From positions 1 through 50,990 of the IMG/VR virus record IMGVR_UViG_3300044798_000057: DNA of 50,990 bases; one strand, 5' to 3'. Origin of the DNA: a virus. A program made the position numbers and the translations under genes. Below, one piece after another: positions 1-50,572 of the stretch. The first letter of the stretch is position 1. Each line of letters opens with the position of its first letter. The notes below the pieces were generated by a model that had not been told where the DNA came from, made no database searches, and was given only the letters and a program-made list of their open reading frames with translations.

Positions 1-10
1 AATAAATAGG

Positions 11-170
11 GACACCGGCGCGAGGCTAGTTCTCCTGTAGAGACATTAAGCCGCGCTGTAACCTAGAGAGAGTATAAATCAAGGGGACGATTAAATGAGA
101 GAGCGAGTTCAGGGATCGGGTGAGGGCGTCGAGCGAGGCGTTATGACGCCGAGCAAAGGAACGCCCGACG
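11..170 (+). ncRNA. Candidate structured RNA element, copy A
   Basis: There is no credible gene here, and the sequence is shared with 49975-50140. Blocks conserved between the copies start with GACACCGGCGCGAGG and include GCGCTGTA, CCTAGA, CAGGGATC and TCGAGCGAGGCG. Stems I can draw: GCGCG 18-22 with CGCGC 52-56; TCGGGT 116-121 with GCCCGA 163-168; GGCGT 125-129 with ACGCC 146-150. The last two are kept in the other copy through paired base changes. A terminator-like hairpin follows at 206-232. I do not recognise a known RNA family. The rightward orientation is inferred from that hairpin and from the downstream genes. Confidence 0.5.
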
Positions 171-205
171 ATCTCCATTTTGCCTATTACTATTATTGGT
201 GTTAT

Positions 206-232
206 AAGAACTTCTTTGATAAAGTTCTTTTT
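206..232 (+). terminator. Terminator-like hairpin after RNA element A
   Basis: AAGAACTT (206-213) pairs perfectly with AAGTTCTT (222-229) across an 8-nt loop, and T residues follow to 232. The stem is AT-rich, so it is a moderate intrinsic terminator for rightward transcription. It would separate the RNA element from the promoter at 275. Confidence 0.5.
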
Positions 233-274: not shown

Positions 275-303
275 TTGACATGACCGTTTTGGCGTGTTAG
301 ACT
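275..303 (+). promoter_or_regulatory. Sigma70-type promoter
   Basis: TTGACA at 275-280, a 17-bp spacer, then TAGACT at 298-303. It lies just upstream of the gene at 326 and would drive the first rightward genes. Confidence 0.65.
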
Positions 304-325: not shown

Positions 326-532
326 ATGTCAAATTACATCGTCGTCGGCGGTGGATGGGATGGAGTTAGTTCCACGGGAGATACGTTTGTTAGAATAAAG
401 TTCAAAAACACTATCCCCGATGGCACCATGGTCACAATGTGGAAAAATAAACACAAAGATACAGAAAAACACCCAGATTACTTGATTATGGCGGCGGTAA
501 AGATTGACGATAAGCCATGGGTTCCAAAATAA
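326..532 (+). CDS. Small hypothetical phage protein
   Basis: 68 residues starting at ATG 326, with GTGAGG about eight bases upstream; a GTG at 308 is an alternative but lacks a ribosome site. It opens with MSNYIVVGGGWDG and contains IPDGTMVTMWKN and KHPDYLI, which suggests a compact beta-rich protein. I do not recognise the family. It is the middle gene of terminal module A. In module B the equivalent slot holds an unrelated VRR-NUC-like nuclease, so this position appears to be exchangeable. Confidence 0.6.
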   Translation: MSNYIVVGGGWDGVSSTGDTFVRIKFKNTIPDGTMVTMWKNKHKDTEKHPDYLIMAAVKIDDKPWVPK

Positions 533-3110: not shown

Positions 3111-3524
3111 ATGTCAACCAAAGAATATCGAATTACCCACAAGAAAGAAATAGCCGCGTATAACAAATCCTATGGAACCACTCATCTCGAAGAAAGGCGT
3201 GAATATAATCGAAAGTGGAGAAAGGAACATCCCAATGCCGCCACTCAACACAATAGACGCTGGAGGACAAGGAATCCAGAGAAACGCTTGGAATTGGGAG
3301 CGCGGTGGTGGAAAAAATATCCCAAGAAGATGAAGGCACAGCACGCCCTCAATCATGCCATAAAGGATGGGAGAATTATTAGGCCGGGAATATGCGAAAG
3401 ATGTGGTAATTCATCACAGGTAATTGAAGGCCACCACTTTGATTACGAAAAACCACTGGAAGTTTTATGGTTATGTCATTCCTGCCATCAAGAAATTCAC
3501 CTGCCGGATGGAGGGAAGAGATGA
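3111..3524 (+). CDS. HNH-type endonuclease with N-terminal basic repeats
   Basis: 137 residues. The N-terminal two thirds is built of short basic repeats (NKSYGTTHLEERREYN, NRKWRKEHPN, NRRWRTRNPEKR) likely to contact DNA. The C-terminal domain has CERCG, EGHHFDYEKPL and LCHSCHQEIH, matching a zinc-stabilised HNH/beta-beta-alpha-metal fold. A full-length paralog lies at 12845-13282. Probably a free-standing homing-type nuclease; activity is inferred. Confidence 0.7.
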   Translation: MSTKEYRITHKKEIAAYNKSYGTTHLEERREYNRKWRKEHPNAATQHNRRWRTRNPEKRLELGARWWKKYPKKMKAQHALNHAIKDGRIIRPGICERCGNSSQVIEGHHFDYEKPLEVLWLCHSCHQEIHLPDGGKR

Positions 3525-3892
3525 GCGAGAAGTACAGCACGGATGACTTAATTTCCGTGATCGGAAACTATACAACGGGACGAGTGCGTGTGATTACTTA
3601 TGCGGAGTGCGACGCCATCATCGCCCGGCTACGTGCAGAGGATAGCGATAAAATCAAGGCGGACAAATTACAAGGGGGAGAAATGAGCGAGAAGAAACTA
3701 AAACCATGTCCGTTCTGCGGAAGAGAAGCTAAAATACACGAAGCAGATTGGGATTGTCACAAATCAGAGAAACCATATCGGGTTACATGTGATGGTGAAT
3801 ATATTCATACAGACGAAGCGTGTGGAGCAGAAACACTATACTTTAGGATGCCAGATGAAGCTATCGCCGCCTGGAACAGAAGGGCAAAATGA
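3521..3892 (+). CDS. Lar-like zinc-ribbon protein with N-terminal extension
   Basis: 123 residues. ATG 3521 overlaps the HNH stop. Residues 1-53 form a short helical segment. From residue 55 comes a Lar/restriction-alleviation-type zinc ribbon: LKPCPFCGREA, a later CGAE, and the terminal AIAAWNRR. A second in-frame ATG at 3683 has a strong AGGGGGAG site, so a shorter 69-residue protein may also be made. Lar-type proteins are linked to protection from host restriction, but many phage versions are uncharacterised. A shorter paralog is at 13279. Confidence 0.65.
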   Translation: MSEKYSTDDLISVIGNYTTGRVRVITYAECDAIIARLRAEDSDKIKADKLQGGEMSEKKLKPCPFCGREAKIHEADWDCHKSEKPYRVTCDGEYIHTDEACGAETLYFRMPDEAIAAWNRRAK

Positions 3893-6930: not shown

Positions 6931-7649
6931 CCATTGAATTGGTTGCTGCAGAGGCGCACCAAATCAATAAATGGATTATTGAATGTCGGATGAATATCGA
7001 GGCTAATTTCATTCAACTTGCCGGATTGTTAAAGAGGGTTCGAGATGAAAAACTCTACGTCGTCCTCGATCACAAAACATTTGAGTCTTATATTGCTGAT
7101 CCAGACTTAGCCATGAGCCGATCTAAGGCTTATAAACTTATTCGGACATGGGAACTTTATGTAGAGAAATTATCAATTCCAAAACAAATTCTCATAGATA
7201 TTGGTAGCAAGAGACTGGAAATTATTTCCCCCCTAGTTCCCGCCATGATATTGGAAGAACACCATAGGGAAGATTGGTTAAATAAGGCAAGAGAATTAAG
7301 TCGCTCCGATCTTGAAAATGAGGTCCGGCAATGTCAGGGTAAGTCTATTCTTTCCTCCCTCCCCATGACTATCCCGACGGTTGATAATTTGTCGGACCTC
7401 CTGAAATATAAGAGTTATACCGAATACGTTGAGGCACAACCATGTATCTTGTGCGGTGTCTCCCCGGTAGACAAAAGCCACTTCCCCAAGACCAGGGGTG
7501 CAGGTGCGCCAGATGATTGGATAATACCAACTTGCCGCAATTGTCATACTGGGTATCATTTGAATCCCCTTAAATGGATGCACGATTATCAGGACAAGTG
7601 GGCGGCGTACTTCTATGGTTTGATACTGAAGATGTGGGAGAAGACATGA
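6927..7649 (+). CDS. Helix-turn-helix and HNH-like fusion protein
   Basis: 240 residues; ATG 6927 overlaps the previous stop and has GGAGG upstream. The N-terminal half is helical with an HTH-like segment (DLAMSRSKAYKLIRTWE), as in phage regulators that recognise DNA. The C-terminal part has CILCGVSPVDKSHFPK, then TCRNCHTGYHLNP, a zinc-stabilised HNH-like fold with a non-canonical first histidine. Its stop overlaps the methyltransferase start. It could be a regulatory protein with a nuclease-derived domain rather than an active nuclease. Confidence 0.65.
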   Translation: MTIELVAAEAHQINKWIIECRMNIEANFIQLAGLLKRVRDEKLYVVLDHKTFESYIADPDLAMSRSKAYKLIRTWELYVEKLSIPKQILIDIGSKRLEIISPLVPAMILEEHHREDWLNKARELSRSDLENEVRQCQGKSILSSLPMTIPTVDNLSDLLKYKSYTEYVEAQPCILCGVSPVDKSHFPKTRGAGAPDDWIIPTCRNCHTGYHLNPLKWMHDYQDKWAAYFYGLILKMWEKT

Positions 7650-8575
7650 CCGATGATCTCACACACATCGATCTCTTCTCTGGTATTGGGGGCTTCGCCC
7701 TCGCCGCAGGATGGGCAGGATTCAGAACCATCGCCTTTTGTGAAATCGAGCCGTTCTGTCAGGAAGTGCTCAAGGCAAGGTTCGGGGCTGTTGCCGACAC
7801 CTCGGGCGCAAATGGTCAGGGCAACGAAAGTGAACAGGCACAGGTGCAATTTGGAGGAGGAGATATTAGACCTCTCCTCATCCCCGACATCTTCACCTTC
7901 GACAGCTCTCGATTCCGAGGCGCAACCCTGCTTACCGGGGGTTTCCCATGCCAGCCTTTCAGTTGTGCCGGGAAGCGACGAGGCAAGGAAGATGACCGTC
8001 ACCTCTGGCCTGAAATGCTCCGGGTTATATCGGAGGCCCGGCCCACTTGGGTCGTTGGTGAGAACGTTGCTGGAATCGTCAATATGGAACTCGAACAAGT
8101 GTGTCTTGACTTGGAAGGCGAAGACTATGAAGTCCAGCCGGTTGTTATTCCAGCTTGCGCTGTCAACGCCCCACACAGAAGGGATAGGGTCTGGATTATT
8201 GGGTACTCCTCAAGCCCAAGAGGGCGGGGGGCGGCGCGGAGACTTCTTGAGGGGAAGAACACCATCACCAACGGAATTAATAGCAATGCTCCTGACACCG
8301 AATCACAGCGATGGGACAGGCCACAACAGGATATGGGGATGCGGACAGATATCATTGCACAATATATTGGAGGAGAAGGGGAAACAACCGGATGGGACGG
8401 TTCTTCATTCCAACGATGGGAAGAAAACTGGCCTGAAGTTGCAACCCGCCTTTGTAGAGTGGATGATGGGCTATCCCGACGGGTGGACCGCCTTAAGGCA
8501 CTCGGCAACAGCATCGTCCCGCAAGTCGCATACCAAATCATCAAGGCAATCGCAGAAATAGAAAGGCAACCATGA
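7646..8575 (+). CDS. DNA (cytosine-5) methyltransferase
   Basis: 309 residues from ATG 7646 (ATGA overlap). Motif I is DLFSGIGGFALA (9-20); motif IV is GGFPCQPFS with catalytic Cys102; motif VI is GENVAG (138-143); motif VIII is HRRDRVWIIG; motif X is LKALGNSIVPQVA. It transfers a methyl group from S-adenosylmethionine to cytosine, probably to protect phage DNA from restriction. No cognate restriction enzyme is adjacent. A 302-codon ORF in the +1 frame (7653-8561) covers almost the whole gene. The stop overlaps the helicase start. Confidence 0.93.
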   Translation: MTDDLTHIDLFSGIGGFALAAGWAGFRTIAFCEIEPFCQEVLKARFGAVADTSGANGQGNESEQAQVQFGGGDIRPLLIPDIFTFDSSRFRGATLLTGGFPCQPFSCAGKRRGKEDDRHLWPEMLRVISEARPTWVVGENVAGIVNMELEQVCLDLEGEDYEVQPVVIPACAVNAPHRRDRVWIIGYSSSPRGRGAARRLLEGKNTITNGINSNAPDTESQRWDRPQQDMGMRTDIIAQYIGGEGETTGWDGSSFQRWEENWPEVATRLCRVDDGLSRRVDRLKALGNSIVPQVAYQIIKAIAEIERQP

Positions 8576-15282: not shown

Positions 15283-16028
15283 CTTATTATCCCCCTTGCT
15301 TCCTGAACGCATTGGTAATATTCTTGGAAAAAATCGCGTTTTCCTACGGTTGTTTTTGCGTGGCATTTTCTACATAATAGAATTAGATTATCAAATTCAT
15401 TGTGTTTTGGTTCATAATCTATGTGATGACAATCGTGGTGGTGTCCGTTCTCTGGCAAATAACATTTAGGATTTTGGCATAGGTAATCATCCCGTTTTCT
15501 AATTTTGTTTTTTAAATCATCATTGAAATCTGGTCCGTATGGTTCAAAACATCCACCTCTCCAAAAGTGTGCATTTGGACCAGAATATTTAACTCGGATG
15601 TCTGGATTTCCCCACGCCTCTTTTGTGGCCCTGCTTTTTATCTCCCTCTCGCCCGGATTTGACCAACGTTTCTTGGCGCTATTACTTAATCTTTTCCTGT
15701 ATTCCGGAGATTTCATTGTTGCGAGATGGTGTTCGGATATCTTTTTTCTTGTCTCCGGGCTAACCGGGTGACCCATTAATTTTGCCCGAGTCTTTTCCCG
15801 CTGTTCTTCGCTAACTATCCTGCCCGTTAGAGCGGCAATTAATTTTGCCCTCCTAACATCATCCAGCCTTTGACCAAGGTGGGATGTTCTCATCCTGAAC
15901 CTAGCTTCATCACTAATCGGGGGGTGGTTCCTCCCGGCACAAACAGCACACCTGCGACCAGGGGTGCTCATCTTAGGCCATAAACACGAAAGACAGAAAT
16001 TGGTCCCTTTGCCAGATTGCAAGCTCAT
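15279..16028 (-). CDS. HNH homing endonuclease with zinc ribbon and NUMOD-like repeats
   Basis: 249 residues. An N-terminal CLSC/CAVC ribbon, then repeats such as SEEQREKTRAKLMG and SPETRKKISEHH (NUMOD3-like), then the nuclease: IRKRDDYLCQNPKC, HHHDCHHIDYEPKHNEFDN, LLCRKCHAK. The nuclease half is a close paralog of 34414-35022. It follows terL and has its own strong promoter at 16038-16066. Confidence 0.85.
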   Translation of the reverse strand: MSLQSGKGTNFCLSCLWPKMSTPGRRCAVCAGRNHPPISDEARFRMRTSHLGQRLDDVRRAKLIAALTGRIVSEEQREKTRAKLMGHPVSPETRKKISEHHLATMKSPEYRKRLSNSAKKRWSNPGEREIKSRATKEAWGNPDIRVKYSGPNAHFWRGGCFEPYGPDFNDDLKNKIRKRDDYLCQNPKCYLPENGHHHDCHHIDYEPKHNEFDNLILLCRKCHAKTTVGKRDFFQEYYQCVQEARGIIR

Positions 16029-46912: not shown

Positions 46913-46965
46913 CATCCCCCCTTCCCGATGTCCCTATTTAACCACTTATCAGGCTAAACCTACAC

Positions 46966-47241: not shown

Positions 47242-47555
47242 ATCTACCCCTAAATCAATCCCCCCATATAAAGGCTCTTTTCTGCGCTACCCGTTTGTAT
47301 CCAGGGGAGAAAAAGAAGAGCGTCATTGTATTACCCTTCCCCAGATACAACCATATGCCTAAACCATATCTTATACGCTCGATCAGCTTATGTGCGCAAC
47401 AAAGACCCGAATGGGGATATGGGTATGGTGGATTTGGGCTGGTGTCCCTGATTGATTCATGTAAAGATAACTTACGTATTACATAAGAAATAACGCAAGT
47501 CGTTGATAACAATAGATAACGTAGTTGACACAATGCTACTTATGCGACGCAAACC
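47242..47555. other. Intergenic stretch with GATAAC repeats
   Basis: No convincing gene. GATAAC occurs at 47466, 47505 and 47515, with a related AATAAC near 47489, and an imperfect palindrome CTTACGTATTACATAAG at 47471-47487. A TTGACA at 47525-47530 lacks a good -10 partner. It may be an operator region for the gene fragment that follows. Confidence 0.35.
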
Positions 47556-49677: not shown

Positions 49678-50112
49678 ATGAGTCCGCGAATCTATGATAT
49701 TTGTGGAGAGAAGCACCCAAACTGGAAGGGAAATCGAAAAATTCGATATGGGTATTCATATCTTTATGCCAATGGACATCCAGGTGCTGATAATAATAAT
49801 TCTGTTAGGGAACATCGACTGATAGCGGAAAAGGCCATCGGTCGATTTCTTACTAAGAAAGAAATTGTCCATCACATTAATGGAGATAAATTGGATAACA
49901 GAAATTGCAATCTCTTAATCTGTATCGCTAAATATCATGCGTATCTTCATAAGATAATGAGAAAACAAAAAACGGACACCGGCGCGAGGACAGTACCTTG
50001 CGGAGCGACGTTAAAATCGCGCTGTACCCTAGATGAGGGAGCAGATCATGGGAGTAACTATTTTGAGAGAGAGATACCAGGGATCAGGCGAAGGCTTCGA
50101 GCGAGGCGGTAA
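49678..50112 (+). CDS. HNH endonuclease running into RNA element B
   Basis: 144 residues as an open frame. YSYLYANGHPG, then VREHRLIAEKAIGRFLTKKE and IVHHINGDKLDNRNCNLL with YHAYLHKIMRKQK form an HNH_3-type nuclease similar to the end of 39561-40340. The domain ends near residue 99. The last ~45 residues come from the structured element that starts at 49975 and have no counterpart in the paralog, so the gene may have been joined to the element by insertion. Confidence 0.75.
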   Translation: MSPRIYDICGEKHPNWKGNRKIRYGYSYLYANGHPGADNNNSVREHRLIAEKAIGRFLTKKEIVHHINGDKLDNRNCNLLICIAKYHAYLHKIMRKQKTDTGARTVPCGATLKSRCTLDEGADHGSNYFEREIPGIRRRLRARR

Positions 50113-50140
50113 GCCGAGCGAAGGTAAGCCTGAGCCGACT
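49975..50140 (+). ncRNA. Candidate structured RNA element, copy B
   Basis: Shares blocks with 11-170: GACACCGGCGCGAGG, CGCGCTGTA, CCTAGA, CAGGGATC, TCGAGCGAGGCG. Stems: GCGCG 49982-49986 with CGCGC 50018-50022; TCAGGC 50084-50089 with GCCTGA 50128-50133; GGCTT 50093-50097 with AAGCC 50111-50115. Two pairs differ from copy A by compensatory changes (A-T for G-C, and T-A for G-C). A stem-loop with a T-rich tract follows at 50152-50190. Confidence 0.5.
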
Positions 50141-50151
50141 AGTTCCATTGT

Positions 50152-50190
50152 TATTGTAAGTACAATACAGAATATCTTTCTTTCTTTCTT
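50152..50190 (+). terminator. Terminator-like hairpin after RNA element B
   Basis: TATTGT (50152-50157), loop AAGT, ACAATA (50162-50167), then a T-rich tract to 50190. It stands in the same place as the hairpin after copy A, though the sequence differs. Confidence 0.4.
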
Positions 50191-50241
50191 GTATGTTATG
50201 TATTGTATTCTATTATAGGGTACTTTTTAGCAAAAAAGAGC

Positions 50242-50270
50242 TTGAATCTTGTTTATCCTCGTGGTATAAT
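50242..50270 (+). promoter_or_regulatory. Sigma70-type promoter
   Basis: TTGAAT 50242-50247, 17-bp spacer, TATAAT 50265-50270, with GGAGG and ATG shortly after. It occupies the same slot as the promoter at 275 in module A. Confidence 0.78.
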
Positions 50271-50290
50271 ACGAAACGTTGGAGGATAAA

Positions 50291-50572
50291 ATGTCTTACA
50301 AAAAGCTGAGAGAGGAAAACTTTGATCGAGATTACAAGAGTCCGGCTGAACAGGCTTTTGTAAACTTAGCCAGGGTTAATGGTTGGCAGATCACCGGGAG
50401 GGGGTATCCAGACTTTATTTGCTACAGGAATGGTGAAATTATGATGGTTGAGGTTAAGGCTAGCAAAAACCATAGGCTTAAATCGGGCCAATGGTTATTT
50501 ATGAACACAATGAAAAAATACGGGGTTAAGTGCTATAAATGGTCTCCAGATAATCCCTGGATTCCCTATTAG
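50291..50572 (+). CDS. VRR-NUC-like nuclease
   Basis: 93 residues, TTGGAGGATAAA before ATG 50291. The order SPAEQAFVNLARVNGWQ, GRGYPDFICYRNGE, IMMVEVKASKN, LKSGQWLFMNTMKKYGVKCY matches the small VRR-NUC (PD-(D/E)XK) family: Glu in the first helix, PD, ExK, and the late Gln. Phage members are thought to cut branched DNA. It replaces the unrelated gene at 326 in the duplicate module. Confidence 0.78.
   Translation: MSYKKLREENFDRDYKSPAEQAFVNLARVNGWQITGRGYPDFICYRNGEIMMVEVKASKNHRLKSGQWLFMNTMKKYGVKCYKWSPDNPWIPY

Follow-up and report, generated by a model that had tools for sequence, protein, structure and literature searches.

The put antitermination RNAs of phage HK022 are short stem-loop RNAs found within early phage transcription units. 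GOLLD and ROOL, in turn, are structured non-coding RNAs of phages and prophages with no known function, which are widespread, often lie near tRNA islands and are far larger, GOLLD often exceeding 800 nt (PMC12286853; PMC2864571). Other structured RNAs include the phage c4 antisense RNA (RF01695; it is among those listed in PMC2864571) and the HEARO or IS607-associated guide RNAs (RAGATH-18; PMC11061315).

Here we describe a candidate small RNA present in two versions, A and B, near the two ends of the window, by which we mean the whole stretch of DNA analysed, an entire IMG/VR virus record of 50,990 bases. Like GOLLD and ROOL it is a structured phage RNA predicted to be non-coding, but it is only about 160-260 nt long, it was found in one clade only and the window contains no tRNA; neither a length of several hundred nt nor a covariance-model match in Rfam links it to these two families. 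It resembles the put RNAs as a short stem-loop RNA in an early region, although independent promoters seem to follow it here. With c4 it shares small size and structure, and the existence of two divergent versions would fit immunity groups; A and B gave no match to RF01695 and no complementary target was identified. As with HEARO, a structured RNA stands beside an HNH nuclease gene, in copy B only, but this neighbour is a short HNH_3 homing-type endonuclease and not IsrB or TnpB, two relatives carry another gene in its place, and there is no Rfam match; an adjacent RuvC/HNH IsrB or TnpB effector, as required for such a guide RNA, was not found among the neighbours, which are HNH_3, YopX and VRR-NUC genes. 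The element probably represents a new and narrow orphan RNA family of an already known general kind (GOLLD, ROOL and others), unrelated to those families by the tests applied here. If transcribed, it would add a small orphan family to phages, whose non-coding RNAs are poorly catalogued and among which the functions of even the largest are unknown.

The phage and the two elements

The window virus is a tailed phage, as judged by its genes for a terminase, an SU10-type portal, virion proteins and a DnaB-like helicase, and it is uncultivated and probably a podovirus. Early genes run rightward from about 47 kb across the contig ends to about 15 kb, and late genes leftward from 46.5 to 15.3 kb. Named phage collections contained only remote relatives (portal identity below 25%); in IMG/VR several relatives were found with portal identities of 94-97%, among them L005 and L006 (94%). 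The portal gene of L006 (5601-8627) is a single frame of 1009 aa into which about 330 aa matching LAGLIDADG_3 are inserted in frame; the insertion is probably an intein with a homing endonuclease.

Both elements were located where an earlier note on this DNA had placed them (Table 1), and they do share conserved blocks, being 72% identical overall with 28% of bases differing. The block GGACACCGGCGCGAGG (10-25 in A, 49974-49989 in B) is nearly unchanged between them, as is CGCGCTGTANCCTAGA, which together with a purine-rich GAGAGAG stretch lies upstream of a hairpin, P3, that forms the 3' part of both elements. Folds of the whole elements are moderately better than those of shuffled sequences (z -1.8 for A and -2.5 for B), and these + strand values are better than those of the complementary strand (z -1.2 for both).

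Table 1. Positions of the candidate RNA elements and associated features in the window
Feature	Position	Strand	Basis
Candidate RNA element, A	10..171	+	homology to 49974-50136 (72%); without Rfam match
Candidate RNA element, B	49974..50136	+	homology to element A (72%); without Rfam match
Conserved block CGCGCTGTAACCTAGA, A	52..67	+	A/B comparison; recognisable in L005/L006 as CCGYGCCGTAACYTAGRT
Conserved block CGCGCTGTACCCTAGA, B	50018..50033	+	A/B comparison
Hairpin P3, A	124..166	+	fold -22.4 kcal/mol, z -3.4; model R2 match; pair counts
Hairpin P3, B	50092..50131	+	pair counts; model R2 match; fold z -1.5 alone
A/T-rich hairpin then T-run, possible transcript 3' end, A	206..232	+	fold
A/T-rich hairpin, pyrimidine tract in loop, possible 3' end, B	~50162..50206	+	fold
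Sigma-70-like promoter TTGACA-17-TAGACT, TG before -10, gene after A	275..303	+	consensus match only
Sigma-70-like promoter TTGAAT-17-TATAAT, TG before -10, gene after B	50242..50270	+	consensus match only
Small ORF (68 aa) after A	326..532	+	without family match
VRR-NUC-like nuclease gene after B	50279..50572	+	just below Pfam cut-off
Contig end rerunning contig start	50894..50990	+	97 bases identical to 831-927

Comparison of the whole window and, with lax filters, of A, B and the L005 element on both strands with the covariance models of Rfam 15 gave nothing at the gathering score and returned only chance matches (human, viral and Staphylococcus families), which agrees with the earlier failure to recognise a known RNA; identities as a group I intron, riboswitch or ribozyme were dropped, as there was no match of any sort. 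In IMG/VR, pattern scans for the 5' block, for the hairpin or for the middle block recovered only L005 and L006 or coincidences in coding sequence, and a pattern scan of GTDB gave a single coincidence with no hairpin at the site. BLAST searches of A, B and the L005 element against phages found nothing, and B matched plasmids only twice, weakly and at annotated genes. A 20-base match in the L030 genome lies inside a coding region and was ruled out, and an exonuclease-based scan for further early-region contigs returned only the L005 contig. Elsewhere in the window, a sub-threshold Rfam match to the alphaproteobacterial L2 leader at 15946-15999 (27.9 bits against a cut-off of 37.8), running antisense to an HNH gene, is probably due to chance.

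Structure and conservation of hairpin P3

P3 is a hairpin of about 40 nt, in which a basal stem of 4-6 bp leads to a GC pair step flanked by GA-rich internal loops and then to an apical stem. In A the basal stem pairs 124-129 with 161-166, the GC pairs are 133-134/153-154 and the apical stem is 137-141/146-150, with tandem GA between the GC pairs and the apical stem; in B the corresponding elements are 50092-50097/50126-50131, 50101-50102/50118-50119 and 50105-50107/50113-50115. The local folds of both agree on the order RGGCNU/ANGCCY stem, GC pair step, paired GA dinucleotides, apical stem, and in B the segment 50085-50136 reaches z -3.2, as compared with the hairpin alone (Table 1). P3 was itself ruled out as a terminator, as no T-run follows it.

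The base changes between the two copies that had first suggested a conserved structure, TCAGGC/GCCTGA versus TCGGGT/GCCCGA and GGCTT/AAGCC versus GGCGT/ACGCC, are real, and each set includes one two-sided change. The two stems so defined cannot coexist, however, since their 3' strands overlap by three bases (163-168 and 161-165 in A, 50128-50133 and 50126-50130 in B) and the stems are therefore mutually exclusive. Only the second, of the GGCTT/AAGCC type, is kept in relatives, and the stem that is supported is accordingly RGGCNU/ANGCCY, the base of P3 with its GA-rich internal loops.

Homologs of P3 were found via synteny at the matching genomic place in L005 (5752-5786, - strand) and L006 (1798-1832, - strand), where both carry GCCGYGCCGTAACYTAGRTRAGAGAGA ... 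RACGGCGAGCGATCTTTTAAGAGAGCGCGAGCCGT; their hairpin has the same architecture in other bases, and they provide diverged third and fourth elements. These two genomes are 95-99% identical to each other across the RNA and its tail and about 72% identical in the gene just upstream. In a structure-guided alignment all 40 of the 40 scorable pair cells were standard and 5 of the 11 pairs showed a two-sided change, while sliding the partner by 1-3 columns reduced pairing to 32-45%, although these counts come from four sequences of three distinct types in a fitted alignment and the shuffle controls ignore relatedness. A structural descriptor of the hairpin matched four times in 456 kb, at A, B, L005 and L006, all homologous, and once in 2.28 Mb of dinucleotide-shuffled sequence (about 0.2 expected versus four seen); having been composed after the L005 and L006 sequences were seen, it measures specificity and is no blind prediction. 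A model built from A and B alone scored L005 at 5.8 bits and L006 at 9.1 bits, neither being significant, and models R1 and R2, run on all relatives (R2, built from all four elements, including 17 whole records), found no member beyond the four. In thermodynamic folds of L005 and L006 the apical register is shifted by two bases, so that only the basal stem, ACGGC/GCCGT, which is common to both registers, is firm there.

Structure kept by compensatory change among homologs, which is what distinguishes a phage-encoded small structured RNA, is thus seen here in few and fitted sequences. The conservation of P3, with matching base changes in two relatives, suggests that the RNA is probably real and narrowly distributed. 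Selection on RNA structure, as proposed in the earlier note, is accordingly supported for the 3' hairpin through its homologs in L005 and L006, but is not established for the first 100 nt.

A possible transcript and its role

The reading we put forward, to which we would give an even chance, is that the + strand of the early region in one clade of uncultivated podophages encodes a small structured RNA, probably as a separate transcript. Past P3, at a distance of about 30-100 nt, A, B and L005/L006 all have A/T-rich hairpins with T- or pyrimidine-rich tracts, which differ in sequence as had been remarked for A and B; the tract on the B side is CTTTCTTTCTTTCTT at 50176-50190, and the hairpins after A and B were not called by a terminator scan, which wants three G-C pairs. 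In A and B the element and its tail occupy a gap ahead of sigma-70-like promoters, which are consensus matches and which in the B region occur at near the number expected by chance. Since a separate promoter-like sequence stands ahead of the next gene, the RNA would end about 60-100 nt past the hairpin, giving a separate transcript of about 160-260 nt. As far as sequence can indicate, gap position, downstream promoters and A/T-rich hairpins together favour such a separate short RNA. No promoter was recognised in a scan directly before copy B. The HNH_3 endonuclease ORF preceding B (49678-50112) has no stop until inside the RNA element and its hairpin. In the relative L008 (3500-4500) a VRR-NUC gene like the one after B stands at the matching place; ahead of it, in place of an RNA of the A/B type, there is an unrelated GC-rich hairpin resembling a terminator.

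The element is kept at one genomic place while neighbouring genes change, and its non-canonical GA loops suggest, speculatively, that it could act in trans by binding a phage or host protein early in infection. Of the earlier description as a phage regulatory or protective RNA, the structured phage RNA is supported; the regulatory or protective role was a guess, for which we found nothing either way.

It is possible, though we hold it to be rather unlikely, that the element acts instead in cis on the early transcript, as a leader or as an antitermination site affecting RNA polymerase or the translation of downstream genes, comparable to put of HK022. Its location within the early gene array on the same strand would fit this, as would the ability of the L005 ACGGC to pair in a switch-like manner with GCCGT either upstream (GCCGTAACCTAG...TTAGGGAACGGC) or downstream (P3), an alternative seen in the fold. 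By inspection, however, the upstream pairing is weak in A and B, A, B and L005/L006 are followed by different genes, and sigma-70-like promoters separate the element from the next gene.

A small translated ORF, of which the apparent structure would be a by-product, is less probable still. A and B have in common a frame (95-250 in A) that reads RERxQGSGEGxERGxxPSxGxP and starts 8 nt downstream of a purine-rich stretch; the sole A/B length change in the shared stretch is of 3 nt, and 16 of the 23 residues agree. As many identical residues are nevertheless often left by 15 random changes (mean 13.5, P = 0.09), all six of the sites that differ between L005 and L006 in the corresponding frame change the residue, four of them at codon position 1, and towards the C-terminus A, B and L005 do not resemble one another, so that coding by the shared frame appears unlikely.

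That the element works as DNA, for example as an origin of replication or a binding site for a regulator, is quite improbable: the 5' end of A is the motif AAATAGGGACACCGGC, which recurs as binding sites do and, in the window phage and L005/L006, stands on the opposite strand in non-coding DNA ahead of the late genes, but the hairpin of L005/L006 has no motif adjoining it, the motif occurs elsewhere with no hairpin, and paired GA steps in the hairpin loops, typical of RNA, as well as the better folding of the + strand point to RNA.

The motif itself is an asymmetric 16-base sequence found in the window at 4-19, 46924-46939 (-), 47438-47453 (-) and 49968-49983, in L005 at 8187, 8348 and 8587, in L006 at 3644, 3805 and 4080, and once in L023 (7558), lying in non-coding regions and mostly aimed at late genes. 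Copies A and B start in or next to it, and in L005/L006 it is not beside the RNA. It is a candidate phage promoter or operator and is present even in L023, a distant relative at 41% identity.

Alleles of one locus or a duplication

The earlier note had spoken of two copies, and two elements are indeed present; that they arose by duplication is probably incorrect, two alleles of one locus being likelier. The 97-base repeat at the contig end accounts for the only repeated 40-mers in the window, and starts directly after the stop codon of a 71-aa gene, extending to the contig end. Before it, on both sides, the order is RNA element, unrelated small gene and 71-aa gene, the two versions of the latter having about 65% amino acid identity and about 71% identical bases; a search for further relatives of this gene found none. 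L005 shows 47.4 kb - RNA - 4.6 kb as an unbroken order, from which it follows that the contig ends lie within a closed or permuted genome. Relatives keep their colinearity over the join, and the whole contigs of L005 and L006 have one element each. Taken with the repeat, this makes alleles the likelier explanation: the genome is probably circular or permuted and about 50.06 kb long, and in it A and B would be alternative alleles contributed by two co-occurring strains and joined by the assembler at their common backbone.

A lesser possibility, to which we still allow some weight, is that the RNA, a variable gene and the 71-aa gene make up a unit truly duplicated in tandem in a single genome; the divergence between the two units is similar for the RNA (about 72% identical bases) and for the 71-aa gene (about 71%). 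Against it stand the single element in each of the two relatives and the exact 97-base match running from the 71-aa stop codon to the contig end, which resembles a branch in an assembly graph. If the allelic reading is correct, apparent pairs of copies at the ends of metagenomic phage contigs may in other cases, too, be two strains at one locus.

Strains identical in the adjoining backbone would then carry RNAs differing at 28% of their bases together with different linked neighbour genes, compensatory changes preserving the core hairpin, and one could imagine, as a long shot, that the RNA is a fast-diversifying specificity determinant serving immunity, compatibility or counter-defence. Also in the early region, the window encodes at 3467-3892 a match to the Lar restriction alleviation protein (Pfam PF14354), a candidate anti-restriction gene, with a C5 cytosine methyltransferase nearby at 7574-8575.
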